This document shows, in pieces, positions 43,469-63,061 of a stretch of 64,000 bases of DNA. The notes beneath the pieces are model-generated. The model ran no database searches, was not told where the DNA came from, and saw only the letters and a program-made list of their open reading frames with translations. The translations under genes and the position numbers were made by a program. The DNA is from Streptomyces sp. AM 4-1-1. GTDB lineage: Bacteria; Actinomycetota; Actinomycetes; Streptomycetales; Streptomycetaceae. How positions within the stretch are numbered: the stretch's first letter is position 1; each line of letters opens with the position of its first letter. The DNA is taken from contig NZ_CP119145.1 of the NCBI RefSeq assembly GCF_029167625.1, positions 3,782,001-3,846,000 of the forward strand, read 5' to 3'.

Positions 43469-43510
43469 GGGTGGGTGACGAGCATCGAGCTCGCGCTCTG
43501 AGCTTGGGAA
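43469..43510. repeat. degenerate att site (inner copy of the tRNA-Gly 3' half)
   Basis: Matches 38 of 42 positions of the tRNA-Gly 3' segment, ending in the identical CTCGCGCTCTGAGCTTGGGA A. The anticodon-stem 5' half and D-arm are absent, so this is not a gene but an old attachment site. TTTTCATGGGG in front of it matches TTTTTCATGGAG in front of the 44815 copy. Confidence 0.85.
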
Positions 43511-43698: not shown

Positions 43699-44370
43699 TC
43701 AGTCTTCGTGCGGAGCCTCCTGCTCCTGGAGTCGTTCGCCGATGTCGTCGCCCCATGCCTGTGCCCACTGCCGCAGCCCGGTGATTGCCTGCTCGTCGAG
43801 TCCGTAGGCGGCGAATTCTGTGTCGTCGATCCAGTCGGCTCCACCCAGTCGCGCTTGGAGCTCGCTCAGATCGAAGGAGTCGCGGGCATGGCGCCGTCCG
43901 AGCTCTTCGAGTTCGACGTGACTCCAGTGGTTCGCTGCGGCCTGAACGTCGATCAGGTCTCTGGCGAGCCCGCGGTCGGACAGCGCGCGGACCTTGGTTC
44001 CAACGACATCTTCGAGTGACAGCACCAAGCCGTGCTCGGTGTGCACAGGCGGTCGCCAGAGTGCTTCCTTGAGGATGTCGACTTCGCACTCTTCACGGCT
44101 GGTGGGGTCGGTGACGATCAGGCGCGCGGACAGCGGGTCTGTTTCCAGAGCGCTGACCTGCCACCCGCGCTGCTCCAAGCCGATGCGCACGGCAGTCGCA
44201 ATGTCCTCCATGCGCTCGGGGTTCTCGGTCGCGACGTCGAGGTCCTGGCTGAGCCGGTCGACGAGGCCGTGCGCCTGGACCGCGTAGCCACCGGTAAGCG
44301 CCAGAGGGTATGCACCGCCTACGGCAAGCACGTCTGCAAGCAAGCGACGGTGCAGGTCGGTGAGGTTCAC
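43699..44370 (-). CDS. AbiEii/AbiGii-type nucleotidyltransferase toxin
   Basis: A 223-residue nucleotidyltransferase-fold protein. The core motif is ALTGGYAVQAHGLVDRLSQDLDV (GG...then DxD-type acidic pair DLD), with a further acid in ECEVDILKE. It matches the AbiEii toxin family, which adds nucleotides to RNA acceptors and blocks growth during phage infection. Start GTG 44370 overlaps the upstream stop (GTGA). It lies in a relic element, so it was probably retained as an addiction or defence module. Confidence 0.82.
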   Translation of the reverse strand: MNLTDLHRRLLADVLAVGGAYPLALTGGYAVQAHGLVDRLSQDLDVATENPERMEDIATAVRIGLEQRGWQVSALETDPLSARLIVTDPTSREECEVDILKEALWRPPVHTEHGLVLSLEDVVGTKVRALSDRGLARDLIDVQAAANHWSHVELEELGRRHARDSFDLSELQARLGGADWIDDTEFAAYGLDEQAITGLRQWAQAWGDDIGERLQEQEAPHED

Positions 44371-44814: not shown

Positions 44815-44856
44815 GAGCGGGTGACGAGAATCGAACTCGCGCTCTGAGCTTGGGAA
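44815..44856. repeat. att site, left end of the outer element
   Basis: A 42-base perfect copy of the tRNA-Gly(CCC) 3' half (identical to 62990-63031), from the anticodon loop to the 3' end plus one base. After GGGAA the sequences diverge. This is the expected product of integration of an element into the tRNA 3' end. Confidence 0.92.
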
Positions 44857-47402: not shown

Positions 47403-48149
47403 TCAACTCGGTCCTGTAACTGCGGCCTTGTCCACCCAGCGGGCCAGGACGCTCAACGCCGCCAGCTGTTCCAGCGCCTCATGTTCGGGCAGCTCCGGCA
47501 GGCCGTCCTCGTGGCTGTTGGGATTACGGATGCCCGCGTAGCAGCCATCGGCGAAGGCCATGGCTCCGCGATGGACGCTGCGGAAGGTGTCTCCGCCGTC
47601 ATCCTCCATCAGGCGAAGGCGGTGCTCACCCTCCTTGGGCGGAGCCAACGAGAAGGCGTTCTGGAAGAGCTTCGTCTCGCTGAGGTCCCGCCGCTGCACC
47701 TTGTTCTGCGTCTCGGCGTTGACCTTCCTCGCCGCGGCGGTAACCGCCTCGCGGAAGTGACTGCTTTGCCATAGTGCCCCCGCCCCCTGCCAGACCCACG
47801 GGTGCATGGTCGCGGCGCTCAGCTGAGGGGCGTTGTCCCCCAGGCGTTCGCTGATTTCTGTATCCCGCTGGAGTGCCGCGTCGGCGCGCTGTGCGGCCTC
47901 CCGGTGCTGGCACCAGCGGTTGATCTCCTCGTTTCGGTCGGACGGGACGTCCGTCTTCCAGTGCGGCAGCACGCGGTCGAGGATCTTCTCCACGACGTGA
48001 GCGCTCGCGACGATGTCTCGCTGTGATCCCCTGTTGGAGAGGCTGCTGCTGAAGATCATCACGCCGGGCGGGTCTGGCAGCCGGTACAGCTCGGTCAGTT
48101 CCAGGAAACGGGCGAGCTCGCCGCGTGCCCAGTGGATGTCGAGAGTCAT
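47403..48149 (-). CDS. TIGR02391 (Ymh) family protein
   Basis: A 248-residue protein. The C-terminal ~130 residues match the TIGR02391/Ymh pattern: TMHPWVWQGAGALWQSSHFREAV, then AFSLAPPKEGEHRLRL and GCYAGIRNPNSHEDG, the last resembling the conserved RNP-(x)-H of HEPN-like folds. These proteins are frequent in defence islands and mobile elements. ATG 48149 overlaps the stop of a degraded acetyltransferase frame (TGATG). Function unknown; RNA-related activity is possible. Confidence 0.7.
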   Translation of the reverse strand: MTLDIHWARGELARFLELTELYRLPDPPGVMIFSSSLSNRGSQRDIVASAHVVEKILDRVLPHWKTDVPSDRNEEINRWCQHREAAQRADAALQRDTEISERLGDNAPQLSAATMHPWVWQGAGALWQSSHFREAVTAAARKVNAETQNKVQRRDLSETKLFQNAFSLAPPKEGEHRLRLMEDDGGDTFRSVHRGAMAFADGCYAGIRNPNSHEDGLPELPEHEALEQLAALSVLARWVDKAAVTGPS

Positions 48150-48450
48150 CACGCCATCATCCACACACCCACCGACACCGAACCCGCTTGGCACGGCCAG
48201 CATCGGGAGACGGCAGTGCTGCACCGCTCGACCAGCACGACCTCGCGCCAGACCCCGTGATGCTGTGTGATGCGCCCACGGGTGCCGATCACCCGGAACC
48301 GGCCCGTTCGTGGACGGTGAGGCTAGCGGCACTCTCGGGGAAGATGCCAGACTGAATGGTCCAGACCCCGGCCGCCTCGGTGGAGTCGATGAGCGTCTTC
48401 AGCAACACGGAGGCGACGCTTTGACCACGGGCGTCGGAATGGACGGGGAC
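48149..48450 (-). pseudogene. frameshifted GNAT acetyltransferase fragment
   Basis: Minus-strand translation gives VHSDARGQSVASVLLKTLI, then AAGVWTIQSGIFPESAASL and HERAG, then, after a one-base loss near 48300, FRVIGTRGRITQHHGVWREV and VLVERC. This is the C-terminal half of a phosphinothricin-acetyltransferase-like GNAT protein. The N-terminal half is missing and the shift breaks the frame. It abuts an MFS fragment on the other strand. Confidence 0.7.
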
Positions 48451-48701: not shown

Positions 48702-49745
48702 TCAGGCGAACGCCAGCTCTCGGAAGGCGTTGCGGACGTCGGTCAGTGGTTGGCGGTCGCGGGTGTAGTAGAGCTTGTTGGTCAGCAGCACCGCCCATCG
48801 GTCCTGAGCGGGGGAGATCCACATACCGGTGCCGGTGAAGCCGTAGTGGACCCAGACGTCCTGCTCGTCCGTGGTGCCGGGCGCCGGGTGCCAGAACAGG
48901 CCGCGCACCGGTTGGAGGCCGCCGGTCTGCACGGTGAGGGAGTAGGCACTCCACTCCGCGCCGAAGCCGGCTTCGGCGGGGGCTGTGGTGTGGTCGAGCA
49001 TGTAGCGCAGGAAGACGGCCAGGTCGTCGAGGACAGTGAAGACGCCGGCGATACCGCATACGCCGCCGAGGAGCCGGGCGGAGAAGTCGTGGGCGACGCC
49101 CTTGAGGTGGGTGTCGGTGTCCTGGTCGAGTTCGGTGGGAGCACACTTGGCCGCGAGGTCGGCGGGCAGCGGCCCGTACCGGGTGGAGTTCATGCCGAGT
49201 GGGCGCCAAGTCCTTTTCTCGGCCAGCTGGTCGAGCGGTTGATCAGAGAGGTGTTCGGCGAGGTAGCCGAGAATGAGGGCGGCCCGGTCGGTGTACTCGA
49301 CGGCTTCCCCGGGCGGCCGGTTGAGGGCTTCGCGCAGAACCCCGCGACGAATGGCGATGGGATCGCTGCTGTAGAGGTTCTTCAGCTGGGCGCGCAGGGG
49401 CAGACCGGCGGTATGGGTCAGGAGCTGGCGGGCTGTTACGGCGGCGAGGGGGTGACCTGCGGCCTCGTCCCAGAAGGTGCCGAGCGGGGCGTGGAGGTCG
49501 AGGACGCTGTCTTCCCACAGCGCACCGATGGACGCCCAGACCGCGAGGATCTTGGTCAGGCTGGCCGCGTCGAAGACGGTGTCCGGCCGCATCCTCACGT
49601 CGGGTTCATCGGGATTCAAAGCCCCGGCGGCACCAGCCTCCTGGACTCCGCCGGAGTCGCCGACAGCCCACACCGCGCCCGGATAGACCTTGTCGCGGAC
49701 GCCTTCGCTCAGCAGGTTCTCGATCCGGTCGGTGTTGTACGGCAT
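48702..49745 (-). CDS. beta-lactamase-fold serine hydrolase
   Basis: A 347-residue class C beta-lactamase/DD-peptidase-like hydrolase without a signal peptide. The SxxK motif is FDAASLTKILAV (Ser about residue 62), the second motif is YTDRAALILG (YxD form seen in esterase-like members), and the third region is VHYGFTGTGMWISP. It probably acts in the cytosol as an esterase or amidase rather than on beta-lactams. It follows the six-gene operon after 111 bases and could be its last member. Confidence 0.85.
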   Translation of the reverse strand: MPYNTDRIENLLSEGVRDKVYPGAVWAVGDSGGVQEAGAAGALNPDEPDVRMRPDTVFDAASLTKILAVWASIGALWEDSVLDLHAPLGTFWDEAAGHPLAAVTARQLLTHTAGLPLRAQLKNLYSSDPIAIRRGVLREALNRPPGEAVEYTDRAALILGYLAEHLSDQPLDQLAEKRTWRPLGMNSTRYGPLPADLAAKCAPTELDQDTDTHLKGVAHDFSARLLGGVCGIAGVFTVLDDLAVFLRYMLDHTTAPAEAGFGAEWSAYSLTVQTGGLQPVRGLFWHPAPGTTDEQDVWVHYGFTGTGMWISPAQDRWAVLLTNKLYYTRDRQPLTDVRNAFRELAFA

Positions 49746-49856
49746 GGTCTCCCTCTTCGTGTGGGCACCTCGGCGGCCAGCGTAGTGACGTGAGTGGTGC
49801 GGGACGGGCAGCGGCGTGCCGCTGGGATGCAGGGTGCGTTGCCCGGCCCGCTGGTC

Positions 49857-50960
49857 TCAGGTGAGCTGGCGGCCGAGGCTGGCCAGTTCTCGGGCGGTCT
49901 TCGACAGTGGGTAGCGGGCAGCGTTGGCGTATCCGGCCTGCCTGAGGGCCGCGAGGAGTCCACGTTCGATTCGAAAGCGATCCAGGTCCCGGCTGAGCAC
50001 GGAGGGGCGAGTGAAGTCGGCGGTCATACCGGAGCCACCGAGGGCTTCGCTGAGGCCGGGGACCGGCTGGTACAGGACGGGGAGTCCGCAGGCTTGGGCT
50101 TCGAGGGCGACCAGGCCCATGGCCTCCAGGGTCGTGGAGGGCATGACGAGTAGGTCGTGCTCGCCAAACGTTCTCCACAGCTGGGGGCGGCGGAGCCAGC
50201 CGAGATAGCGGGCCCTCACTCCCGCTTGCTGTAGCTGCGGTGCCAACGCCCGGAACTGAGAGCTGGGAGCGGCGATCGACAGTTCGACGCCCTGGAGCGT
50301 GGCCACGCTCCGGATCAGCGCTTCTACGCCCTTCTCAGCGGTAAGTCGACCCGCGTACAACAAGCGGAAGTGGCCCCTGGTCGTGCGTACGGGCTGGGCC
50401 GGCGGCTGAGTGAGGAGGTGGTCGGGGATTCCCCACGGGATGCGGGTGATTTTGCGTCGGTCGGTCTCCGGGGCGAGCTTGAGAAGGTGATCGGCCATCG
50501 CGTTGGTGGGTACGACGATGGCGTCTGCGGCGCGGGCGGTCGCTCGCAGGACCTGGAGCTGCTTGCGGTGGGCTTCGGCGAAGATCAGATCGGTGCCGTG
50601 CACCAATGCGATTCGGGGATGCTTAGGGAAGGCCCGGACCAGCGCTGGTGTCGCCCCGAATGCGAGGTGTTGCAGATGCAGGATTCCGACGTCTGCTGGA
50701 TCTACCGCCCTGACCAGCGTCCGCTGGAGGGTGGCAACGTAGCGCCGGAAGGCATAACCAGTCAGGCACTTGCCCGGCGCCTCCACCAGACCCAGACCTA
50801 CTGGTGCTGTCGGCCTCGGCCCCCTGCCCTCCGGCGCGAGCATGAAGGCTCGGGCGGGCAGGAGCGGATCGCTGCCGGTGTACAGGTCCAGGAAGAGCTC
50901 GACGCTTCCGCCGGGGCTCGGGAACGGCAGGTCGAGGGCCGTGATGATGGTGGGGTTCAC
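49857..50960 (-). CDS. GT4-family glycosyltransferase
   Basis: A 367-residue GT-B glycosyltransferase. The N-domain has FPSPGGSVELFLDLYTG and IALVHGTD; the C-domain has FRLLYAGRLTAEKGVEALIR and the family-4 donor motif VMPSTTLEAMGLVALEAQACG (E-x7-E form). It should transfer a sugar from a nucleotide donor to an unknown acceptor. GTG 50960 overlaps the upstream dCTP-deaminase-like stop (GTGA). It is the last gene of the overlapping operon. Confidence 0.88.
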   Translation of the reverse strand: MNPTIITALDLPFPSPGGSVELFLDLYTGSDPLLPARAFMLAPEGRGPRPTAPVGLGLVEAPGKCLTGYAFRRYVATLQRTLVRAVDPADVGILHLQHLAFGATPALVRAFPKHPRIALVHGTDLIFAEAHRKQLQVLRATARAADAIVVPTNAMADHLLKLAPETDRRKITRIPWGIPDHLLTQPPAQPVRTTRGHFRLLYAGRLTAEKGVEALIRSVATLQGVELSIAAPSSQFRALAPQLQQAGVRARYLGWLRRPQLWRTFGEHDLLVMPSTTLEAMGLVALEAQACGLPVLYQPVPGLSEALGGSGMTADFTRPSVLSRDLDRFRIERGLLAALRQAGYANAARYPLSKTARELASLGRQLT

Positions 50961-51493
50961 GCGGGGCCTCCCGGGTCCTCCTCGTAGAGGCGGGACGTTT
51001 CGATCCCCTGGCTGCTTCGGTATTTGAGGCCGTGGTCCTGGTAGCTGGCCGCAGCGCCCAGGGCCTGGAGGAAGACCAGCTTTCCGAAGGTCATGCGTGG
51101 GTAGACCCAAACCGGTCGGCTGGCGCGGATCTCCAGGGTCCAGCGGATGGCGTGGCCCTGGTGTCCGAGGGGAGCGGAGACGTGGACCCAGATGCCGAGC
51201 GCGCCGATCGTCCGGTTGCCGTTGAGGAACTGCGCGTACGTCTCCGAGCCGGTTCGCTCGTACGTCGTTCCCAGGTAGAGGACCTCGGGCCGCAGCACGT
51301 AGCCGGTGGCGGGGATCGGCGCCTCCTGGAACTCGGTCGGCTTGGCTGCGTCCAAGGAGCCGTCGTGGAAGCGCAGGGTGTCGCCGAGGCTCCAGTCGTA
51401 GGCATTGGGGGACACCCTCTGCGGCTCGTACGGCTCGATGGTGATCTCGCCGGCGGCTCTGGCGGCGGTGATGGCGGGGCCGGTGAGGATCAC
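50957..51493 (-). CDS. dCTP-deaminase-like protein A (SxxGR motif lost, Glu kept)
   Basis: A 178-residue protein of the dCTP deaminase/dUTPase superfamily: VILTGPAITAARAAGEITIEPYEP at the N-terminus and RWTLEIRASRPVWVYPRM in the core. Against the true Dcd ([10 protein letters not shown]) it has NGNRTIGALG, so the phosphate-binding Ser and Arg (E. coli Ser111/Arg115) are replaced by Arg and Ala. The catalytic Glu (TLE) is kept. The C-terminal lid KYRSSQGIETSR resembles KYQGQRGPTPSR. GTG 51493 overlaps the next paralogue's stop. Deamination alone is doubtful. Confidence 0.82.
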   Translation of the reverse strand: MILTGPAITAARAAGEITIEPYEPQRVSPNAYDWSLGDTLRFHDGSLDAAKPTEFQEAPIPATGYVLRPEVLYLGTTYERTGSETYAQFLNGNRTIGALGIWVHVSAPLGHQGHAIRWTLEIRASRPVWVYPRMTFGKLVFLQALGAAASYQDHGLKYRSSQGIETSRLYEEDPGGPA

Positions 51494-52029
51494 GAGGCCA
51501 CCGCCCGTAAGGCGGCGAGGTCGCGCCAGTACGCGGAGGGCTGGGGGCCGGCCGCGGACTGGTACTTGCCCGAGTAGAGCGCCACCGGGCCGACGGACAC
51601 GAAGAACATGATCTGGCCGATTCGCATGCCGGGGTACACGCGCAGGGGTCGTATCGGGGAGAGCATGAGCGTCCACTGGCCGTGGAAGCCGATGTCGCCG
51701 ATGGGGGCGGTGATCTCCACGAACAGGCCGAGGCGGCCTACCGAGGACCGGCCGAAGAGCAGCGGCACGAACGTGTTGGAGCCGACCTCTTCGATGGTGT
51801 GGCCGAGGTAGAGCTGGCCGGGTTGGAGTTCGTAGCCGTCGGACCCGATCTCGATCGGCACGGTGGGATTCGGCTGGTGGGCGTCCAGCGTGTCGGCGGC
51901 GTACGTGAGCAGGGTCCCGCCGGGACGGACGTTGTAGCTGTTCGGGTTGACCTGCGTCGGTTCGAACGGGGAGATGCGGATGCGGCCGTCGGTCGCGGCC
52001 TGGGTGATCTCGGGGCCGGTGAGGATCAT
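51490..52029 (-). CDS. dCTP-deaminase-like protein B (SxxGR kept, catalytic Glu lost)
   Basis: A 179-residue paralogue: MILTGPEITQAATDGRIRIS, then FGRSSVGRLGLFVEITAP, GFHGQWTLMLSPIRP and the lid SGKYQSAAGPQPSAY. The SSxGRxG motif is intact, but the catalytic Glu of TLE is Met (TLM). This is the reverse of the defect in protein A. Both starts and stops overlap their neighbours by four bases. The two may form a mixed trimer, each supplying what the other lacks; alternatively both only bind nucleotides. Confidence 0.82.
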   Translation of the reverse strand: MILTGPEITQAATDGRIRISPFEPTQVNPNSYNVRPGGTLLTYAADTLDAHQPNPTVPIEIGSDGYELQPGQLYLGHTIEEVGSNTFVPLLFGRSSVGRLGLFVEITAPIGDIGFHGQWTLMLSPIRPLRVYPGMRIGQIMFFVSVGPVALYSGKYQSAAGPQPSAYWRDLAALRAVAS

Positions 52030-53240
52030 CGCAAGCCTCCATCGGTGAGCGTGTGCTGCACGGCTTGGCTGAGGGGGATGCCGGCCTGTTGGGTACGGCC
52101 TCCGAGGTACGTCTCGGCCAGATAGCCGGTGGTGAGTACGGTCGGCACGCGGTCGGGCAGGGGCTCGGGGGCGAACACGATCGGGCCGGCTCTCTCCGCG
52201 AGATGGGAGAGGAGGGCCGCCGGGTCTGTGGCGAAGGGCTCGGGCACGCGGGCGTGGACGAGCTGGTTGTTGAAGGGCTCGATGGCCAGGAGCGTTCCCG
52301 TGGTGAGCGTGGTCCCGAGCTGGACTGTGCGGAGGGCCGTTTCGTTGAGTACGACGGCTTCGGCGCCCAGGCCGCTGTGGAGGCGGTTGGAGAGGTCCTG
52401 GAGAAGGGCCCGACGTTCGAGAGGGCGGTTCTCGTGCGGATGCCGGATCGGCCCGAGCGGTGTGCGCAGCTCCTCGCGGACAGTGTCGATGGCTTCTCGT
52501 ACGTGCGTGAGCTCGTCCGGAAGCCCGCCCGCTGCTGGGAAGTCCGCCAGCCGACCTGCCCAGCCGGAGTGCAAGGGCCGCGCGAGTGCGTATCCCGCTG
52601 CCAGCTCGCGTCCCTTGAGGACGAGCGTGTCTCCGACGGGCACCGGCTTCGGACGGTCGCTGTGGCAGTGTCCGGCGAAGACGACGTCCAGGAACGGGCA
52701 GGCGGCGGCCAGCTTGAGGTCCTCGTCGAACCCGGAGTGGCTCAGCACCACCCAGGAGTCCGCCTTGTGGTGATGGGCCAGCATCAGCTCGCGCAGTGCA
52801 CGCACGGGCTCGACGACACGGTGGCCGGCGCGCTGGTCGGGCGGGATGGCGTTGAACGCCTGCGGCCCGATGACGCCCGTGAGGGCGATACGGCGGGTGC
52901 CGATGCGCACCAGGCGGACTTGGTGGAAGAGCGGCTCACCGGTGTCGTCGCCGACGACGTTCGCGCACACGCTGATGTCGTGGAGGGCGGGTTCGAGGTG
53001 GTGGCTCCAGCCGTGATTGCCAGGAACGACGGCGTCGTAGAGACGGAGGAGGACCTCCCTCTCGATCCGTCCCCGGCCGAGCTGGTAGTAACCCGTGCCC
53101 TCGAAGAAGTCCCCGCAGTCGACGATGAGGCTGTCGTGTCTCACGGCGTGCAGGTGCGCGAGCATCGGTGCGGCGTCGTCGAACGTCGAGTGGAAATCGG
53201 TGGTGGCGATGATGCGCTGGAGGCGTCTCGGGGCGGTCAT
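52026..53240 (-). CDS. calcineurin-like 5'-nucleotidase-type phosphoesterase
   Basis: A 404-residue metallophosphatase. Metal motifs: IIATTDFHSTF (DxH), LIVDCGDFFEG (GD), VVPGNHGWS (GNHx), VVLSHSGFDED and FAGHCHSDRP (GHxH). A second domain (after about residue 265) contains VVLNETALRTVQLGT and EPFNNQLV, matching the C-terminal nucleoside-recognition domain of 5'-nucleotidases. No signal peptide, so it is probably intracellular. ATG 53240 overlaps the upstream MurA-like stop. It may remove the phosphate from a modified nucleotide. Confidence 0.88.
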   Translation of the reverse strand: MTAPRRLQRIIATTDFHSTFDDAAPMLAHLHAVRHDSLIVDCGDFFEGTGYYQLGRGRIEREVLLRLYDAVVPGNHGWSHHLEPALHDISVCANVVGDDTGEPLFHQVRLVRIGTRRIALTGVIGPQAFNAIPPDQRAGHRVVEPVRALRELMLAHHHKADSWVVLSHSGFDEDLKLAAACPFLDVVFAGHCHSDRPKPVPVGDTLVLKGRELAAGYALARPLHSGWAGRLADFPAAGGLPDELTHVREAIDTVREELRTPLGPIRHPHENRPLERRALLQDLSNRLHSGLGAEAVVLNETALRTVQLGTTLTTGTLLAIEPFNNQLVHARVPEPFATDPAALLSHLAERAGPIVFAPEPLPDRVPTVLTTGYLAETYLGGRTQQAGIPLSQAVQHTLTDGGLR

Positions 53241-54556
53241 GGGGTGACCTCGCAGATGTCGGCGCCGAGTGCGAGGAGCTTGCCGGGCAGATCGGCGTGG
53301 CCGCGGCGGATCTGGTCGACTCTGCCGAGCGTGGTGACGCCTCGGGCGGTGAGCCCGGCGATCATCAGCGCCGAACCCGTACGGATGTCGGTCGCCTCCA
53401 CCCCGGCGCCCGTCAGGCGCTGCGGTCCGGTGAACCGGCATTCGGTGGTGGACAGTTCGGTGATGACTCCGCCCATGCGGACGAGCTGAGGGATGAGGTT
53501 GCTGTGGCGGCCGGGGTTGATCGGGTCCGAGAAGAAGTGCGTGCCGGGGAATCCCAGGGCGAGGCCGAGGAGTGGTGGCTCGAAGTCGGCGTCGAGGCCG
53601 TTGGGAGCGAGGGAGGCCATGGCCCGGAGCGGCCGACCGGTCGGCTGCATGTCCTGACCTTGCACGACGAGCGCCTCGGCTTCGTAGGCGGTAGGGATGC
53701 CCACCCGGTTCAGCGCCGTGATCAGCGGTGCTATGTCGGAGCCGTGGATACCTTCGACCCGGGCTGTGCCGCCGGTCGCCGCCACGGCACAGGCCAGTGT
53801 CCCGGCCTCGATCTTGTCTCCGGGCACTTTCCAGGCAGGTACGTCCTGCGAAACGGAGGACGGTGCTACGAGGGTGAGGACGCGCTCACCGGCACGGCAC
53901 TCGTAACCGATGGCCTTCAGCGCGTTCACAACGCCGAGGACCTCCGGAGAGAGGTTCGGCTGACCGAGCCGAAGCGGGGTACCGGCGACCACGGCGCGCA
54001 GGATCGCGGCGATCGTCGCCCCGCGTGAGCGAAACGGCAGGACCAACGACACCGTGCCCCGGACCGCCTTGCCGACTTCGACCAGGTACCCGCGATCATC
54101 CACGCGGATCCGGTCGCCGAAGGCTTCGTACACCTTGAAGTGCTGTTCCATGCCACGGTCGCCGATCCGGCACCCGCCGGGCCAGGGGAGCCGGGCCCGG
54201 CCGCACCGGGCGATAAGGGCGGGGACGAGGTAGTACGAAGCACGGATGCTGGACGCGGCCTCACCCAGATCTTCGGGCGTCAGGGTCGTCTCGCCAGGGA
54301 GCACAAGGGTGGTTGGGCCGTCACTGACCGGGTGAGCGGCGGTCCAGCCCGCCTGCCGTAGCAGGTCGAGCAGTGTCCGTACGTCGGAGCTGGCAGGCAC
54401 GTTGTCGAAGCGCACGGGTCGAAGGAGGGCGGCTGCAGCCGCGACGAGCGGGAGCGCGGCATTCTTTGAACCGTCGACCCTCACGGAACCGGTGAGGGGT
54501 CGTCCGGGCCGGATCGCGATGACTTCGGACGTGACTGCGGGGGCACAGGTATTCAC
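53237..54556 (-). CDS. MurA-like enolpyruvyl transferase
   Basis: A 439-residue EPT/RTPC-fold protein related to UDP-GlcNAc 1-carboxyvinyltransferase. The substrate Lys-Asn pair is in RVDGSKNAALPL. The catalytic Cys is in WPGGCRIGDRGMEQH, but MurA's RPVDLH is changed to RGMEQH. The acidic base region is NGLDADFEPPL and a late DQIRRGH matches MurA's Arg region. The changes around the sugar-nucleotide pocket suggest a different acceptor, as in NikO/PolA-type nucleotide enolpyruvyl transferases. GTG 54556 has AGAGGAG upstream and overlaps the HATPase stop. Confidence 0.85.
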   Translation of the reverse strand: MNTCAPAVTSEVIAIRPGRPLTGSVRVDGSKNAALPLVAAAAALLRPVRFDNVPASSDVRTLLDLLRQAGWTAAHPVSDGPTTLVLPGETTLTPEDLGEAASSIRASYYLVPALIARCGRARLPWPGGCRIGDRGMEQHFKVYEAFGDRIRVDDRGYLVEVGKAVRGTVSLVLPFRSRGATIAAILRAVVAGTPLRLGQPNLSPEVLGVVNALKAIGYECRAGERVLTLVAPSSVSQDVPAWKVPGDKIEAGTLACAVAATGGTARVEGIHGSDIAPLITALNRVGIPTAYEAEALVVQGQDMQPTGRPLRAMASLAPNGLDADFEPPLLGLALGFPGTHFFSDPINPGRHSNLIPQLVRMGGVITELSTTECRFTGPQRLTGAGVEATDIRTGSALMIAGLTARGVTTLGRVDQIRRGHADLPGKLLALGADICEVTP

Positions 54557-55005
54557 GTGCAACTCCTCTGCTTAGGAGGGGCCGAGGCGGATACAGCCCC
54601 GGCGGAAGGTGGAACCGCCGCGTCGATCTCGGCCCAGCAGCACTTGCCGGAGTCCGTCGGGGCCGTATCGAAGCGGTCCGCGAGGACGCCGACGAGGAAG
54701 AGGCCGCGTCCGCCCTCGCTGTCCGTGTCCGGCAGCGCCGGCTTCGGCGCAGCGCGGCTCGCGTCGCTGACCTCCACCCGCACAACCCCGCCGGAGAGCT
54801 GAGCCCTGACGCCGATCGGCTGGTGACCGGCATAACGGACTGCGTTCGTGACGAGCTCGCTGACCACCAACTCGACCGTGTCGACGGCTTCCGGCATCGC
54901 GAGCACTGTCGGCCATGCGGCTATGGCCTCCCGCACCCGGTGTCGTGCCACGGGCACGGCAACCGGTGTCGGCGGGAGAGTAAAGGTGAGCTGGTGCGCT
55001 TCCAC
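54553..55005 (-). CDS. HATPase-domain anti-sigma-like ATP-binding protein
   Basis: A 150-residue GHKL-type ATPase, like the many SpoIIAB/RsbW-type proteins of streptomycetes. N-box: VSELVTNAVRYAG; G1 box: RVEVSDASRAA; G2 box: SEGGRGLFLVGVLADRFD. These usually work as small kinases or in signalling with nearby XRE regulators. GTG 55005 is chosen because CTGGAGG lies six bases before it; an ATG 84 bases upstream lacks a site. First gene of the six-gene overlapping operon, divergent from the XRE gene. Confidence 0.85.
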   Translation of the reverse strand: MEAHQLTFTLPPTPVAVPVARHRVREAIAAWPTVLAMPEAVDTVELVVSELVTNAVRYAGHQPIGVRAQLSGGVVRVEVSDASRAAPKPALPDTDSEGGRGLFLVGVLADRFDTAPTDSGKCCWAEIDAAVPPSAGAVSASAPPKQRSCT

Positions 55006-55094
55006 GAGCGGCCTCCAGGAGTCGGTTGCGACCACCCCAAGGAACCGCGCCCACAACGCAGTTCGCGATGCCTCGTGCCCGTACCGCATCGTTT

Positions 55095-55109
55095 ATGCAG
55101 AAGCTGCAT
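55095..55109. promoter_or_regulatory. palindromic operator candidate between divergent genes
   Basis: ATGCAG-AAG-CTGCAT is a perfect 6-bp inverted repeat. It lies between the HATPase start (55005) and the XRE start (55177), where the regulator could control both directions. Confidence 0.45.
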
Positions 55110-55176
55110 GAAGCCCCTGCACCGCTCGCCTACGCTCGTACACGAGGGCATGCTCGGTGAGGACGGAAGGGCATGG

Positions 55177-56460
55177 GTGGCAGACGTGAAGACCGAAGCC
55201 GAGAAGATCGGCGAGGCGATCAAGCACGCCCGCCAGCGCGCCGGCCGCTCGCAGACCGACGTCGCCACCGCCCTGGGCTACCACCAGTCGAAGCTCAGCC
55301 GCCTTGAGAACGGGCGGGGTACGGAAGACACCCGGGTCTTACGCGCAGTCGCAGCCGAACTCGGCATCCCCCTAAGCCTCCTCGGCCTCAGCACTGCCGG
55401 CCCGCCCACAGAACCGACCGACGATCCCGAGACAGAAGACATGCGCCGCCGCACCTTCCTCGCCGGGAGCATCGCCTCCTTCACGGCCCACACCGCACCT
55501 GCCACGGCCGCCCACGCCGACCTCGTCCGCGCCCTCCTCCCCGGCCCCCAGATCACGTCCGCTCAGGCAGGAGCCTCGGACACAGCCACTCTGGAGTCCC
55601 ACGTCGCCGCCGCCCGGCGCCTGTTCTCCATGTGCGACTACGCACAGCTGGAAGCCGTCCTGCCCGACTTGCTCACCGACCTGCGGGAGGCCGCAGCCGA
55701 TCACCGCAACGGGACCGAAGCCTCCGGTCTCCTGGCCACCGCGTATCAGACGTCGACCAGCCTGCTGCTCAAGCAGGGCGACCACGGCAACGCCTGGCTC
55801 GCGGTGGGCCGCGCCCTTTCCGAAGCCGAGCGCTCCGGCGACCCTGTCGTCCTCGCCTCCAGCGTCCGCGTACACGCCCACGTCCTGACCAGAGAAAAAC
55901 ACACCACCCAGGCAGTCACTCTCGTCCGGCACACGGCGGGCCAGCTCGCCGGGGCATACGACCAGCGGTCCCCTCGCTACCTGGCCGCTGTGGGGCTACT
56001 CCTCCTCCGGGGCGTCACAGCCGCCAGCACAGCCGGAGACCGCGCAGCTACACGCGAATTCCTCGACGAAGCCCGGAACGTCGCCCGCTACGTCGCGCTT
56101 GACCAGCCCGACGCCTGGGCGAACTTCAGCCCCACCAATCTCTCCCTTCACGCCGTAAGCGCCGCGGTCGCCTTCGGTGACGCGGGCATCGCCCTGAATA
56201 CCGCAGCGCCCCTCATGCGGCGGCACATCCCCGTCCCAGAACGCCGAGCGGCCCTGTGGGTCGAAGCGGCCCGCGCGTACAACCAGCAGGGCCGCCTCGC
56301 GGAGGGCTACCAAGCTCTCCGCATCGCCGAATCCTGCGCCGCCCAGGACGTACGCCGCCCCGCGGTTCGCGACCTGGTGGTCGACATGGCCGCCCGCGAC
56401 CGGCGACGCACGCTGCCCGAACTCCACCGACTGAGCCGACGACTGGGAGCCCCAGCATGA
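55177..56460 (+). CDS. XRE-family transcriptional regulator with helical repeat domain
   Basis: A 427-residue regulator. The HTH spans about residues 8-65 (IKHARQRAGRSQTDVATALG, then HQSKLSRLENGRGTED). An RRRTFLAG segment near residue 90 is typical of this streptomycete family and is not a signal peptide. The rest is TPR-like helices for ligand or partner sensing. GTG 55177 has GGAAGG upstream; ATG 55150 is an alternative. Its stop overlaps the flavoprotein start. It probably regulates the divergent operon. Confidence 0.88.
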   Translation: MADVKTEAEKIGEAIKHARQRAGRSQTDVATALGYHQSKLSRLENGRGTEDTRVLRAVAAELGIPLSLLGLSTAGPPTEPTDDPETEDMRRRTFLAGSIASFTAHTAPATAAHADLVRALLPGPQITSAQAGASDTATLESHVAAARRLFSMCDYAQLEAVLPDLLTDLREAAADHRNGTEASGLLATAYQTSTSLLLKQGDHGNAWLAVGRALSEAERSGDPVVLASSVRVHAHVLTREKHTTQAVTLVRHTAGQLAGAYDQRSPRYLAAVGLLLLRGVTAASTAGDRAATREFLDEARNVARYVALDQPDAWANFSPTNLSLHAVSAAVAFGDAGIALNTAAPLMRRHIPVPERRAALWVEAARAYNQQGRLAEGYQALRIAESCAAQDVRRPAVRDLVVDMAARDRRRTLPELHRLSRRLGAPA

Positions 56461-56999
56461 CGACACCACCCTTCCTGTACGTCGTCGTCTGCGCAGCCGG
56501 CATCGCGGGCGACGCCCACAAGCTGATCACCGCCGCACAGGACAAGGGCTGGGGCGTCGGGGTCGTAGCCACACCCCAAGGACTCGGCTTCCTCGACGCA
56601 GAAGCGATCGAGACGCAAACGGGCTATCCGATCCGCTCGGCCTGGCGCAGTCCCGGAGACCCGCGTCCGCTGCCGCCCGCCGACGCCATCGCCGTCGCGC
56701 CCGCCACCTTCAACACGATCAACAAATGGACGGCCGGCATCGCCGACACCCTCGCCCTCGGCATCCTGTGCGAGGCATACGGGATGGGCATCCCGACCGC
56801 CGTCCTCCCTTATGTGAACACGGCCATGGCCGCCCACCCGGCATACGGCCGGAGCCTGGAACAGCTCCGGGAGATGGGCGTTCTCATCGGGTCGTACGAG
56901 CCGCACAGGCCGAAGACAGGCGGTGGGGCGGACCGCTTCCGGTGGGGGGAGGCGCTGGAGCTGTTGGAGGGCAAGGTCGCCGATCTTCCCGGAAGGTGA
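56457..56999 (+). CDS. flavoprotein of the phosphopantothenoylcysteine-decarboxylase family
   Basis: A 180-residue flavoprotein (HFCD family). LYVVVCAAGIAGDAHKLI opens it and AVAPATFNTINKWTAGIADTLA is the FMN-binding PAxxNT block. Relatives oxidatively decarboxylate Cys-containing substrates or act as regulators or prenyl-FMN makers. The start ATG overlaps the XRE stop. Together these two genes often accompany HATPase genes in streptomycetes, so a role in the regulatory circuit or in the nucleotide pathway are both possible. Confidence 0.85.
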   Translation: MTTPPFLYVVVCAAGIAGDAHKLITAAQDKGWGVGVVATPQGLGFLDAEAIETQTGYPIRSAWRSPGDPRPLPPADAIAVAPATFNTINKWTAGIADTLALGILCEAYGMGIPTAVLPYVNTAMAAHPAYGRSLEQLREMGVLIGSYEPHRPKTGGGADRFRWGEALELLEGKVADLPGR

Positions 57000-57018: not shown

Positions 57019-58728
57019 TCAACGCCGGCGACTGTGTGAGGACGACCGAGCGGCAGTCGGCGTGCTGCCTGTCGGGGGCGGGATCGGAGCGGTAGAACGT
57101 CGGACGGTGCTGCGGGCCATGGCCGCTTGGGCGCGTGAGCTGGGTGTGTGGCGTTGGCCGAGACGGTGGATGCGCCAGGCCAGAGCGCGGGCGGGGTTGC
57201 GGGCGTCGTCGAGGGTGCGTCGGCCGAGGGCTTGTTCGAGGAGTGTGGCCGGGTTGTGGCCCGCTGTCTCGGCTTCGGCGAGGACGGCGGCGAGGGCGTC
57301 CCAAGCGGGGTCGTTCAGGATGCGGTCGGCGTGCTTGGGAGCGGCTTCCTGGAGGTGGCGGGCGTAGCGGTGTGTGGTCTGGGGGCCGGGAACGCGGCGA
57401 GCGAGGGTGTCCAGGAGCGGGACGGCTACCTGCGCGTATGCGGTTTGGAGGTGGACGAGGGCCTGGTGGGCTGCTGCTTCCTGTTGGGCGTGCTGGTGAG
57501 TGTGGTGCCAGTGCCGGGCGAAGGACACGGCGATGAGGACGGCGTCCAGCAGCATCGCTAGCGCGGCCCCGTCGCCTGTGGCGGTGGGGGTGAGCAGGAT
57601 GGTCTGGATGCTGTTGCGGAGCGCGCGGGTGCTGCCGAGGTCGGCGGCGATACGGGAGCGGGTGGCGCGCTCGAAGACGGCGGCTGCCCGTTCGAGTTCC
57701 CGTCGTGCCTGGGAAGGTGCGGTGAGCGGTAGCAGGTCGAGGGCCGCGCCGAGCGCGACGATCTGGCCTTGGGCCGTCTCGGCTCCGCCATGGGTGAGGT
57801 GGTGGGGGATGCGTTCGGTCGCGGCGGTTGCCTGGTGCCATGGATCGGCTGCTCGGGCGGCAGCGTGTTCGGGGCTGGTGGCGGTGAGGCGGTGGCGGAT
57901 CTTGGGCAGGGAGAGGTCACCGGCGAGGGTGGAGCCGGAGAACCAGACCGGTTCGCCGTGTTTGTTGAGGTCGCCGGGCAGGGCGACGCTGTAGCCCAGG
58001 GTGTCTCCGGACGGGCCGGTCTTGGGCCGTACGTTCATGCCGGTGGCTTCGAGCAAGGCGAAGAACTCCGTCTCGCTGGAGGCGGCTGCCACTGCCCGCC
58101 GTACCCGCGTGCGCAAGATCTCGCGGCTCGTGGTCTCCCGGCCTTGCCGTTTGGCCTCGAAGTGTTCCTTGCTGGTGGGGCGTTTGGCGGCGGTGCCGTC
58201 GCCGGGCTTGAGCCGGCGCAGGCCGAAGTCGATCTCGATCTTGCGGGCTTCGCGCTGGACGGCGCGGATGTCGTGGTCGCGGCGGGGGCGGCGGCCGTCC
58301 TGGCGTACGAGGGTGGCGGCGATGTGGATGCGGTCGTCGGCGTGGCGGACGGCGACCCAGCGGCAGGCTTCCTCGTCGCCTTCAGGGGCGAGGCTGGCGG
58401 CGGCCACGATTCGGCGGGCGATGTCCGCCCACTGGGTGTCGGTCAGGATCGGGTCCTCAGGTGCGGCGCGAACGGGGCAGTGCCACAACGTGGTCGCCGG
58501 CGCCTTGTCGCCGAGCATCTTCACGGGCTGGTCGAGCTGTGTGGCGAGCTGGTTCTCGACATCCTTCGGGTTGCGGTGGGGGCTGCGGCCGGGGTCGGGG
58601 GCGAAGCCGTTCCAGGAAGCGACCAGGTGAGGGTCGGTGTGTTCGTTGGCGCTGCCCAGTCCGTAGAGGTAGCTGATGAGGCGGCGTGTGGCGCGGGCGC
58701 CCTTGCCGAGGATGATCTTCGGTATCAC
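57019..58728 (-). CDS. HUH relaxase / mobilization nuclease
   Basis: A 569-residue relaxase. It opens with MIPKIILGKGARATRRLISYL. The metal-binding motif is in CRWVAVRHADDRIHIAATLV (HxDDxxH-type). The N-terminal ~200 residues are the nuclease and the rest is helical. It nicks at the origin of transfer so the element can be moved by a co-resident conjugation system. It follows the MobC-like gene after four bases. No coupling protein is in the element. Confidence 0.85.
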   Translation of the reverse strand: MIPKIILGKGARATRRLISYLYGLGSANEHTDPHLVASWNGFAPDPGRSPHRNPKDVENQLATQLDQPVKMLGDKAPATTLWHCPVRAAPEDPILTDTQWADIARRIVAAASLAPEGDEEACRWVAVRHADDRIHIAATLVRQDGRRPRRDHDIRAVQREARKIEIDFGLRRLKPGDGTAAKRPTSKEHFEAKRQGRETTSREILRTRVRRAVAAASSETEFFALLEATGMNVRPKTGPSGDTLGYSVALPGDLNKHGEPVWFSGSTLAGDLSLPKIRHRLTATSPEHAAARAADPWHQATAATERIPHHLTHGGAETAQGQIVALGAALDLLPLTAPSQARRELERAAAVFERATRSRIAADLGSTRALRNSIQTILLTPTATGDGAALAMLLDAVLIAVSFARHWHHTHQHAQQEAAAHQALVHLQTAYAQVAVPLLDTLARRVPGPQTTHRYARHLQEAAPKHADRILNDPAWDALAAVLAEAETAGHNPATLLEQALGRRTLDDARNPARALAWRIHRLGQRHTPSSRAQAAMARSTVRRSTAPIPPPTGSTPTAARSSSHSRRR

Positions 58729-58732
58729 GTGG

Positions 58733-59314
58733 TCACCGCCCCGAGATCCCCTGGGCGACGGCCGTGTCCACGTCTTCGACCGATGCCTCGATGCGGTCCA
58801 GCAGTCGCGCCACGATGTCCGGCGCGGGCCAGGCGCCGTCCTTGTGGAGGTGCCAGGTGAGCTGGTTGAGGTTGTTGCCGATCAGGCCGAGCTGGCGATT
58901 GGCGGCCATCAGCGCTTTGACCATGGCGCGGTAGTCGGCGACCGCGGCGGTGGGGTCGTCGGAGCGGGCGCCGGCGAGCGAGGTCTCGGCGACGTAGCCA
59001 CCTACCGACATACGGCTGAGGTGAGCGGCCGTCGCGAGGAGGGCGAACTCGTCGTGGCTGTAACGTGGGTGGACGCGCTTCTCGCGCTGCGTGGGTTCGC
59101 GAAGACGGCGGCGCGGCGCGGACGACTGCGTGGCTTCTCCCCGAGTCGGCTCCCCCGGGCCGACCGACACCGGCGCCCCCACAGAGCCGGATACCTCCGC
59201 CCTCCCCAGGGCGGAGGTCGGGTAAGGACTCCTTACCCGACAACTTGCTGCGCTGTTGAGGCCGGTGATCGTCTCCTTCTGGGTGGTGGGGAGTTCGTGG
59301 TGCGGGTCGTGCAT
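58733..59314 (-). CDS. MobC-like relaxosome accessory protein
   Basis: A 193-residue protein with a disordered N-terminus (to about residue 75) and a C-terminal half resembling MobC-type proteins: RVHPRYSHDEFALLATAAHL, then NRQLGLIGNNLNQLTWHLHK. The NxLNQL block is a typical MobC feature. It likely helps the relaxase melt oriT. GGAGAAG precedes ATG 59314. Confidence 0.82.
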   Translation of the reverse strand: MHDPHHELPTTQKETITGLNSAASCRVRSPYPTSALGRAEVSGSVGAPVSVGPGEPTRGEATQSSAPRRRLREPTQREKRVHPRYSHDEFALLATAAHLSRMSVGGYVAETSLAGARSDDPTAAVADYRAMVKALMAANRQLGLIGNNLNQLTWHLHKDGAWPAPDIVARLLDRIEASVEDVDTAVAQGISGR

Positions 59315-59365
59315 GGGTCGCTTCTCCGTGGGGTCATGATGCCGAGGACTCGGCTGTGCGAGGCT

Positions 59366-59408
59366 CCGTGTCCCAGCGCTCGGCAGCACGGGGACACGGG
59401 GTGTGCTG
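59366..59408. repeat. overlapping inverted repeats, candidate oriT
   Basis: CCGTGTCCC (59366) pairs with GGGACACGG (59391), and CAGCAC (59384) pairs with GTGCTG (59403). They lie just upstream of mobC, the usual position for an origin of transfer. They could instead be a terminator of the DUF2637 gene. Confidence 0.35.
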
Positions 59409-61550: not shown

Positions 61551-62717
61551 TCAGCCCCTAAAAGGCGGCTCGGATGCGGGGCCGACAGCCGGGGGTTCCG
61601 CTGCCTCGATCAGCTTGTTGGTCAGTTCGACGGTGGCGAGGTACCACCAGAAGATCCAGTCGAGGAAAGCGTCGCTGTAGTTAGCGAGTTGGTCCGCGCG
61701 ACGGTGACGCAGGCCGAATCTGTTGGCGATTTCGAACAGCGCGCCATCGTCAGGCTTTCCCAGGTCCTCGCGGATCAGGGCGCGGCGCTCCTCCAGGATG
61801 CCGACGGCGGCAACGATGGCCGACCGCTTGCTCTCCAGAGATGCGTCGCGGGCGCGGAAGAGTGCGATGGCGTGCCGGACGCGGTCGGTGACGGCGGGAG
61901 GACTGTCTTTGAGGACATGGTGCACCAGCTGACGACGCGCGTCGTCGGTTATGGCAACAAGCCGCCCCAGGTCCTCACCTTCAGCCGCGAGCTCGTACTC
62001 GATCCCGGCTTCGCGCAGTAGATCGTTGATCTTCGCGCGATAGAGGATTCGGGCCGGTCCGTTGTGGAACTCCGAGTGGTGCCAACCGCAACCGCTATAG
62101 GAGTGGAAGCTCCGGCGTCGGGGACGGCTGACGAGGTCGTGGAAGACCTCGATCAGACCGTAGAAGGTGTCCTCGTCCCAGGTGGCCGGAGCCAGGGGCC
62201 ACAGGTCTGGAATGCCCAGGCGCCGTTCGATCAGCGCGGAGGCGTCGGGTAGGTCGTCCGACCCGTCGACGCACTCCTCGCCGAACTGCTCGACCAGGTA
62301 GCCGTTGTCCGCGAAGTCGGCGACGATCCGTGCGAAGTCACGGCGTGCATCTCGATCGGTGCTCCCGTCGGCAATCAAGCCGCGTCCCTGTCGCTGAGGC
62401 CAGTAAGGCCGGGGCGCGAGCGCGGGCCGTATCTCCGAAGCGCGACTGATGAGCTCCGAGAACCAGTTCTCGCGCGTTCTCGTCAGGGTCCGGCTTTCCC
62501 GCGTGGTGGCCCAGGGATCACGGAAAGCATCGACCTCTCGGAAGTCCGTCACCGCAGTTGACCCGACCATCGCCTCGGTCAGGAGCCACTCCGCACGGTC
62601 CTCCCACTGAGAGGTCGGCGTCCTCAGGATGCGTTCCCCTTCCGATACGAACAGCGATGTCGGCCACACCAGCTCGTAGTTGCTCACATCCACGATCACG
62701 GCGCCATCATCACCCAT
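61551..62717 (-). CDS. unknown protein at the right edge of the element
   Basis: A 388-residue protein of unknown family. N-terminus: VIVDVSNYELVWPTSLFVSE. The C-terminal third is helical with FEIANRFGLRHRRADQLANY and WIFWWYLATVELTNKLIEAA, loosely like HEPN or abortive-infection proteins. It sits next to the att site and in front of a truncated helicase, so it may be late cargo. ATG 62717 was chosen; TTG 62744 is possible. No predicted catalytic motif. Confidence 0.7.
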   Translation of the reverse strand: MGDDGAVIVDVSNYELVWPTSLFVSEGERILRTPTSQWEDRAEWLLTEAMVGSTAVTDFREVDAFRDPWATTRESRTLTRTRENWFSELISRASEIRPALAPRPYWPQRQGRGLIADGSTDRDARRDFARIVADFADNGYLVEQFGEECVDGSDDLPDASALIERRLGIPDLWPLAPATWDEDTFYGLIEVFHDLVSRPRRRSFHSYSGCGWHHSEFHNGPARILYRAKINDLLREAGIEYELAAEGEDLGRLVAITDDARRQLVHHVLKDSPPAVTDRVRHAIALFRARDASLESKRSAIVAAVGILEERRALIREDLGKPDDGALFEIANRFGLRHRRADQLANYSDAFLDWIFWWYLATVELTNKLIEAAEPPAVGPASEPPFRG

Positions 62718-62910
62718 TCGTGCGCAGAGCGGAGCGGGCTCCAAGGGTATGCGTCGGGTCTGCCAGCCTCTGTCGGGACCATGTCGAATTTCCGGCGTGC
62801 AGGCGCAATCCTTCGGTTCGTGAGCGAGCTAGATCAATCTCACTCAGGTTCACGATTCGCGATCAGGGTCTGGATCGGCCTCCATCGTGACGTCGCCCGA
62901 GGTCCCATAT

Positions 62911-62989: not shown

Positions 62990-63031
62990 GAGCGGGTGAC
63001 GAGAATCGAACTCGCGCTCTGAGCTTGGGAA
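62990..63031. repeat. att site, right end (inside tRNA-Gly)
   Basis: The 42 bases covering the tRNA 3' half plus one base, identical to 44815-44856. The crossover must lie within it, keeping the tRNA intact. Confidence 0.92.
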
Positions 63032-63061
63032 GCTCATGTTCTACCATTAAACTACACCCGC
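62991..63061 (-). tRNA. tRNA-Gly(CCC)
   Basis: A 71-base cloverleaf on the minus strand. Acceptor arms are GCGGGTG / CACCCGC with discriminator U. The D-arm has TTTAATGGTAGAA, the anticodon loop is TTCCCAA (anticodon CCC, reading GGG), and the T-arm is GCGAG-TTCGATT-CTCGT with one wobble. CCA is not encoded. It is the integration target of both elements. Confidence 0.95.

Follow-up and report, generated by a model that had tools for sequence, protein, structure and literature searches.

What is made by an operon that joins two deoxycytidine triphosphate (dCTP) deaminase-like genes to a MurA-like enolpyruvyl transferase, a nucleotidase, a glycosyltransferase and a serine hydrolase? The question is raised by positions 48702 to 56999 of a 64,000-nucleotide stretch of Streptomyces sp. 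AM 4-1-1 (contig NZ_CP119145.1, forward-strand positions 3,782,001 to 3,846,000), referred to here as the window. We find that six conserved enzyme genes move as a set, accompanied by regulators that vary, and that two catalytic acids are partitioned between two Dcd-fold proteins, DcdA and DcdB. The reading we favour, which we judge equally apt to hold or to fail, is of a mobile, compact biosynthetic operon, predicted to encode a pathway to a small molecule derived from a nucleotide, with a two-subunit Dcd-fold enzyme at its centre. The nine genes of the cassette, in window coordinates, are as follows.

54553..55089, minus strand: HATPase of the RsbW type (Pfam HATPase_c_2, 3e-16); variable regulatory gene, not present at every locus
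53237..54556, minus strand: MurA-like enolpyruvyl transferase with a probably changed acceptor site (GTG start; Pfam EPSP_synthase, 4e-35); core gene
52026..53240, minus strand: two-domain metallophosphoesterase of the 5'-nucleotidase family (Pfam Metallophos, 8e-6); core gene
51490..52029, minus strand: DcdB, a Dcd-fold protein (Pfam DCD, 2e-39); core gene
50957..51493, minus strand: DcdA, a Dcd-fold protein (GTG start; Pfam DCD, 4e-21); core gene
49857..50960, minus strand: GT4-type glycosyltransferase (GTG start; Pfam Glycos_transf_1, 9e-16); core gene
48702..49745, minus strand: serine hydrolase of the beta-lactamase/penicillin-binding protein (PBP) family (Pfam Beta-lactamase, 3e-45); core gene
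55108 (or 55150)..56460, plus strand: XRE-type regulator (Pfam HTH_31, 9e-11); start uncertain
56457..56999, plus strand: flavoprotein (Pfam Flavoprotein, 4e-12); 4-bp overlap with the XRE gene

Five 4-bp start/stop overlaps link the HATPase, MurA-like, nucleotidase, DcdB, DcdA and GT4 genes, in this order 5' to 3' on the minus strand. The serine hydrolase gene follows downstream after a 111-bp gap, and the XRE and flavoprotein genes diverge from the six-gene run on the plus strand. Pfam family assignments agree with every name given to the nine proteins, and together with the start/stop analysis they confirm the arrangement described in the initial annotation of this DNA. The XRE regulator is NsdA-like, yet scores under the cut-off of the NsdA model (61.3 of 75 bits). 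No radical SAM gene, exporter or MurB-like gene was seen among the nine by Pfam.

Does this gene set recur as a unit? A scan of genome contigs with the MurA-like protein gave 33 loci. The gene (E ≤ 1e-60) is present in 32 of 394 Streptomycetaceae genomes, the window's own included, and in 2 of 396 genomes of the phylum, one again being the window's own. DcdA matches (E ≤ 1e-18) occur in 57 of the 394 Streptomycetaceae genomes, among them every one of the 32 that have the MurA-like gene, plus 25 others, and in the loci examined the MurA-like gene was met only together with this operon. Among 54 loci, 46 were testable, in that at least 6 kb is present downstream of the MurA-like gene; another seven, cut by the end of the fetched stretch, were set aside (two of these still have all six core genes), and the fragment L037 was dropped. 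The conserved unit consists of the MurA-like, nucleotidase, DcdB, DcdA, GT4 and serine hydrolase genes. Because these six recur together at 44 of the 46 testable loci, and the MurA-like and DcdA genes co-occur in 32 of 32 genomes, the recurrence of the gene set is not chance. One caveat here is that the loci are not all independent, as some that were fetched from two collections appear to come from one genome (L012 and L038, for example).

These counts bear on two points made in the initial annotation, which had proposed checking other actinomycete genomes for the MurA-like gene together with both Dcd-like genes, and had held that homologous neighbourhoods lacking most of the genes would speak against it. 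The expected co-occurrence is borne out; among the testable loci the exceptions to the full core are L030 and L036. Its list of operon members stands for the MurA-like, nucleotidase, DcdB, DcdA and GT4 genes; the HATPase is variable, and the serine hydrolase belongs to the core instead. All three regulators are found at 31 of the 46 loci, XRE and flavoprotein at 3, and none above 60 bits at 12. At these 12, another XRE-like protein occurs in 8 and a 76-residue protein in 6, which we take, without family search, to be of the XRE/DUF397 type; the divergent copies L070-L082 carry different regulators. One plasmid record, from Streptomyces sp. NBC_00161, has all nine genes. Among 1027 open reading frames (ORFs) clustered from 51 loci, mostly judged by eye, no further co-conserved enzyme was found; outside the cassette, two protein clusters (the putative relaxase and the MobC-like protein) occur in 22 of these loci each, two in 13, and the others in at most 8.

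How do the two Dcd-like proteins compare with housekeeping enzymes? The motif-III Asp, the Glu, and the motif-II Ser and Arg are all present in 3 of 3 housekeeping Dcd proteins. The Glu is essential in E. coli Dcd, and the motif-III Asp is presumably the counterpart of D83 in the M. tuberculosis enzyme. In all 46 DcdB orthologs the Asp and both motif-II residues are retained, with Met where the Glu would be; in all 47 DcdA orthologs the Glu is retained, His replaces the Asp, and neither motif-II residue is left. The split is reciprocal in each of the 44 window-type loci in which both genes are full length. Pfam DCD matches uphold the nucleotide-deaminase folds of the initial annotation for both proteins, but neither chain carries the complete dCTP deaminase residue set, and both fall below the 92.8-bit cut-off of the dCTP deaminase model TIGR02274 (DcdB 90.6, DcdA 55.7). 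A candidate for a natural DcdB-DcdA fusion was rejected: the sole 320-residue 'DcdA' (L013) runs past the usual end into unrelated residues.

The top PDB sequence match of both proteins is the bifunctional dCTP deaminase:dUTPase of M. tuberculosis (2qxx, 4a6a; 6e-17 for DcdB, 2e-9 for DcdA). The window differs from it in having two paralogs, each without one of the two acids. According to the accessible portions of the structural literature, active sites of the Dcd fold are located between subunits (PMC4827122, PMC12524310), and D83 of the M. tuberculosis dUTPase provides a comparison point (PMC5519681). With motif III drawn from one subunit and motif II from its neighbour, the site formed by DcdA motif III (with the Glu) and DcdB motif II would be the only interface intact on both sides in the window type. 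We infer that DcdA and DcdB form one heteromeric, probably trimeric, enzyme.

Is the split confined to this operon? We fetched 31 places of other kinds, and each has exactly two Dcd domains. At all 31, one member of the pair (the E-member) has the Glu without the Asp, which is replaced by His (22), Asn (5) or Gln (4), and the second (the Q/M member) has the Asp, its Glu being replaced by Gln in 22 and by Met in 9. L129 and L130 were added later; by inspection L129 shows the reciprocal split as well, bringing the count to 32 of 32 other intact pairs in about six other cluster kinds. The motif-II Arg is kept in 16/31 E-members versus 31/31 Q/M members, and the Glu is invariant in another 35 E-type proteins sampled. 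A maximum-likelihood tree was built from 81 rows, including 8 of the 44 window-type pairs, and in it a branch (99/96) separates the 39 E-members from the Q/M members and the housekeeping Dcd proteins; the tree tool issued a long-branch warning, and L104 and L127 are near-identical. These data suggest one old split with both partners retained, which would be evidence for joint function.

The gene contexts of these other pairs look biosynthetic. Family searches (Pfam or NCBIfam) covered representatives, and the remaining loci were assigned by protein clustering. L109-L112 combine a GT4 with argininosuccinate-synthase-like, ATP-grasp-like and ROK proteins (family search on L110), and in L113-L115 a GT4 is accompanied by the P450 cluster, a methyltransferase recognised by eye and a HAD-phosphatase-like protein (family search on L113). 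Homologs of the window nucleotidase (121-174 bits) and GT4 (185-217 bits) are encoded in L107, L118, L119 and L126, with WbqC in L107; cytidine-deaminase-like and nucleotidyltransferase proteins characterize L108, L117, L120 and L121 (family search on L120). L097, L105, L106, L122 and L124 show a P450 and a LysRS-like class II synthetase (L124), with a methyltransferase in L097 and L124. In the remaining kind, L099-L104, L127 and L128, PPDK_N and PEP-utiliser domains are joined to a Q/M-type Dcd in one protein (L099), whose cluster is shared by the 8 loci. Phosphodiest occurs in 7 of the 8 and DUF6001 in 4; clusters for Aminotran_3 and fatty-acid desaturase are found in 3 (by Pfam on L128 and L099). 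A hidden Markov model of the window-type MurA found no match in 32 non-window-type stretches, and the Dcd pair is the part common to all cluster kinds fetched. That such pairs lie beside glycosyltransferase, P450, aminoacyl-tRNA-synthetase-like, ATP-grasp-like, nucleotidyltransferase and PPDK-like genes favours a biosynthetic role. Two proteins adjoining Dcd pairs may be recorded here: a LysRS-like, class II aminoacyl-tRNA-synthetase-related protein next to the P450 as well as the pair (L124:10060-12207), and one in which a P-loop domain and a cytidine-deaminase-like domain are joined (L116:6561-7628).

The E-type Dcd of L126 was found in 5 of 394 class genomes, all of one genus. With the L128 E-member as query, the best 120 of 210 protein matches name Micromonospora, Nocardia, Amycolatopsis, Kineosporia and others, and no Pseudomonas; since several actinomycete families are represented, the genome sample understates the spread of the L128 kind. 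A broader proposal, to which we give slightly less than even credence, is that DcdA, DcdB and their relatives constitute an unrecognised heteromeric branch of the dUTPase/dCTP deaminase superfamily, in which the acids of a bifunctional ancestor (the deaminase Glu and the dUTPase Asp) are divided between obligate subunits. This branch would be the shared core of many actinomycete small-molecule pathways, with PhtJ/PhtK of phaseolotoxin synthesis perhaps a further kind.

The PPDK-linked clusters also bear on the main rival explanation, that the chemistry is nucleotide-tethered. Here the nucleotide would be the carrier for another small molecule (e.g. for unusual phosphorus-nitrogen chemistry), the Dcd pair would work on the carrier, and the nucleotidase or hydrolase would free the product. 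Such a scheme draws on the phaseolotoxin genes phtJ and phtK, adjacent 'deoxycytidine triphosphate deaminases' beside a PPDK-like gene in the available part of PMC3927611, on the fusion seen in L099 and its seven companions, and on the constancy of the Dcd pair in all fetched cluster kinds. However, PhtJ/PhtK are likened by annotation only, not by sequence, and a PPDK-like gene is missing from the window operon, whose MurA-like enzyme points to enolpyruvyl transfer. We consider a carrier role unlikely, though the most serious of the competing explanations.

What does the MurA-like enzyme act on? It scores 238.3 bits against a cut-off of 392.7 (TIGR01072), below the MurA model cut-offs, and the source genome encodes two other MurA relatives. 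We take the catalytic and phosphoenolpyruvate (PEP)-binding positions, in E. coli MurA numbering, to be Lys22, Asn23, Arg91, Cys115, Arg120, Asp305, Asp369, Arg371 and Arg397; all are kept in 59/59 orthologs except Asp369, which is kept in 58. In the loop after Arg120, Gly stands for Pro in 59/59 orthologs, and an RSRG motif is found where one of the two genomic MurA relatives has PSVG. The replaced segments are presumably those that contact the UDP-sugar acceptor in normal MurA. The protein is like housekeeping MurA in its fold and catalytic residues, and differs from it by invariant acceptor-side residues of its own and by its sub-cut-off score. The acceptor has probably changed, with the catalytic set kept. 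In a PDB search, the nearest solved chains are ordinary MurA (2e-47), with NikO (4fqd) more distant at 1e-27, and this ranking does not bear out membership of the NikO group.

That MurA is the nearest solved relative is one of the points in favour of a role in cell-envelope modification, with the MurA-like enzyme acting on UDP-N-acetylglucosamine or a relative, the GT4 transferring a sugar, and a PBP-like serine hydrolase. GT4 enzymes are frequent in envelope synthesis, and the best NCBIfam match of the hydrolase is PBP4B, though at 70.2 of 385 bits this lies far under the cut-off. We nevertheless regard an envelope role as improbable: the cassette has no MurB-like gene by Pfam, the acceptor-side residues are unlike those of the genome's two other MurA relatives, no export signal was seen by eye, and the Dcd pair and nucleotidase are left unexplained.

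The remaining enzymes retain their characteristic motifs. The metal-ligand motifs of the nucleotidase are kept across 36 aligned sequences, with one His nearly, not fully, invariant. Its AlphaFold2 model (mean pLDDT 89.5) is most similar to the structures of an E. coli 5'-nucleotidase solved with cytidine and uridine, 3ive and 3ivd (E 7e-25 and 2e-24, TMq 0.75-0.77); SoxB, UshA and CD73 rank after these. Judged by the two-domain fold of the model and the metal-ligand motifs, the phosphoesterase fits the 5'-nucleotidase family. The dephosphorylating enzyme of the initial annotation is supported by its fold, and the MurA-like enzyme by its acceptor-site changes; a special link to NikO was not seen. 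The SxxK, YTD and HYG positions of the serine hydrolase are invariant in 30/30 aligned orthologs. Both Glu of the GT4 EX7E motif are nearly invariant over 30 aligned sequences; PDB matches of the GT4 are weak, the best being tetrahydrobiopterin glucosyltransferase (3e-7).

How does the operon come to lie here? Four features flank it.

62990..63061, minus strand: tRNA-Gly(CCC), the integration target; its positions 31-72 are repeated at 44815-44856
44815..44856, minus strand: 42-bp direct repeat of the tRNA-Gly 3' end, exact and on the same strand; distal end of the element
57019..58728, minus strand: putative mobilisation relaxase, named by eye, without Pfam match
58733..59389, minus strand: NikA/MobC-like mobilisation protein (Pfam NikA-like, 1e-8)

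The exact, same-strand copy of the tRNA 3' end places the operon on an integrated element; the operon is cargo of this ~18.2-kb element at tRNA-Gly(CCC). Together with the neighbouring mobilisation genes, the repeat substantiates the mobility that the initial annotation had claimed. The putative relaxase gene was found again at 27 of 54 loci. A tRNA gene is present at 9 of 38 loci scanned, and of the ten stretches tested for a tRNA repeat (the window and the nine tRNA-bearing loci), four have one: the window, L007 (tRNA-Arg), L028 (tRNA-Lys) and L071 (tRNA-Gly). At the sister loci L067, L069 and L071, a second dcd gene, of housekeeping type, and tRNA-Gly(CCC) both adjoin the operon. No tyrosine integrase (PF00589) match was found inside the element; serine recombinases were not searched for. 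A 397-residue protein without Pfam match (61551-62744) adjoins the tRNA-Gly gene where an integrase might be expected. At 43490-43510, ~1.3 kb past the 42-bp copy, lies a 21-bp copy of part of the repeat, which may be a trace of another integration. Beyond the element, close to its edge, is an AbiEii-like gene (43699-44370); a Hypoth_Ymh gene (47403-48332) lies within it.

Mobile cargo with Dcd and nucleotidase folds is compatible with anti-phage nucleotide depletion, in which the Dcd pair and nucleotidase would destroy pyrimidine nucleotides upon infection; this was the alternative offered in the initial annotation. The Hypoth_Ymh and AbiEii-like genes point the same way, as do SduA models, which match at most 3 of 109 downstream-neighbour proteins (SduA_C 2, Cse1 1), although these proteins were picked by hand from 165 listed ORFs and the scan had no background control. 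PADLOC models of known or candidate systems, however, matched none of the seven minus-strand proteins, nor the flavoprotein, and gave only HTH-type matches for the XRE regulator. Moreover, neither Dcd protein has both acids, and depletion needs no MurA-like enzyme, GT4 or serine hydrolase. A defence function seems to us correspondingly remote, and both it and the cell-wall reading are weaker than a biosynthetic one.

For the biosynthetic operon that we favour, a route can be proposed. The DcdA/DcdB heteromer would act on a pyrimidine nucleotide or a nucleotide-linked intermediate, and the MurA-like enzyme would use PEP to enolpyruvylate a hydroxyl of the resulting nucleotide, as NikO/PolA do on uridine monophosphate (UMP). 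The 5'-nucleotidase would then take off the 5'-phosphate, the GT4 attach a sugar, and the serine hydrolase acylate or deacylate, giving a small nucleoside-derived metabolite. The order of enolpyruvylation, dephosphorylation and glycosylation is inferred; NikO/PolA and PolJ are the precedent for the first two steps, as far as the available text of PMC5365060 goes.

Several observations weigh against this route. The MurA-like protein is closer to MurA than to NikO, and the cassette has neither the radical SAM gene of the octosyl pathway nor an exporter among its nine genes. UMP and dUMP are supplied by primary metabolism, so a dedicated Dcd pair is left unexplained. Loci L030 and L036 are without most core genes, and L130 is a decayed window-type operon in which a truncated DcdA, the GT4 and the serine hydrolase are left, with no matches to the MurA-like, nucleotidase or DcdB proteins. 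The pair counts are not independent events, since the E-members fall on one side of a single branch. Finally, substrate, complex and product are all predictions from sequence. As a whole, the interpretation given in the initial annotation is partly supported.

If these proposals are correct, paired 'dCTP deaminase' genes, easily taken as housekeeping, would flag uncharacterised natural-product-like clusters. They would also offer a natural experiment in splitting the catalytic residues of intersubunit sites over two chains, a new acceptor for MurA-type chemistry on a mobile island, and a testable way into a pair for which the phaseolotoxin review (PMC3927611), in its accessible part, gives no explanation of function.

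How does the operon relate to known systems? In the open-licence literature, to which the search was confined (subscription literature lying outside it), we found no account of the operon, nor of the paired partition, in line with the initial annotation, which was aware of no described system with this gene set. The folds are known; the arrangement, above all a reciprocal pair across several cluster kinds, appears new. In the nikkomycin/polyoxin route to octosyl acid, NikO/PolA make 3'-enolpyruvyl-UMP and PolJ dephosphorylates it, according to the part of PMC5365060 available. The window shares with that route an enolpyruvyl transferase of the EPSP-synthase/MurA fold and a phosphatase, both proposed to act on a pyrimidine nucleotide. 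In contrast, the window enzyme is nearer MurA than NikO, its phosphatase has the 5'-nucleotidase fold, a radical SAM gene of the PolH type is absent from the cassette, and the Dcd pair, GT4 and serine hydrolase are extra.

The phaseolotoxin cluster (argK-tox/pht) of Pseudomonas syringae offers the other comparison. In the accessible part of PMC3927611, Table 2 gives two neighbouring genes, phtJ and phtK, the annotation deoxycytidine triphosphate deaminase; phtL (PPDK) adjoins them, and desaturase genes and one for an ornithine aminotransferase are close by. According to that review, mutating 14 pht genes gave 11 Tox- strains and three low producers. As far as that source goes, the two systems have in common a tandem Dcd-like pair, a small-molecule cluster and a horizontally moved island. 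A residue partition in PhtJ/PhtK, likened by annotation only, would be a prediction. Where the window has MurA-like, nucleotidase and GT4 genes, the listed phaseolotoxin genes are PPDK-like, desaturase, amidinotransferase and ligase genes. A PPDK-like gene beside the Dcd pair, absent from the window cassette, is found in both the phaseolotoxin cluster and L099, and on the genes listed there L099-L104, L127 and L128 are nearer to the phaseolotoxin gene set than the window is.

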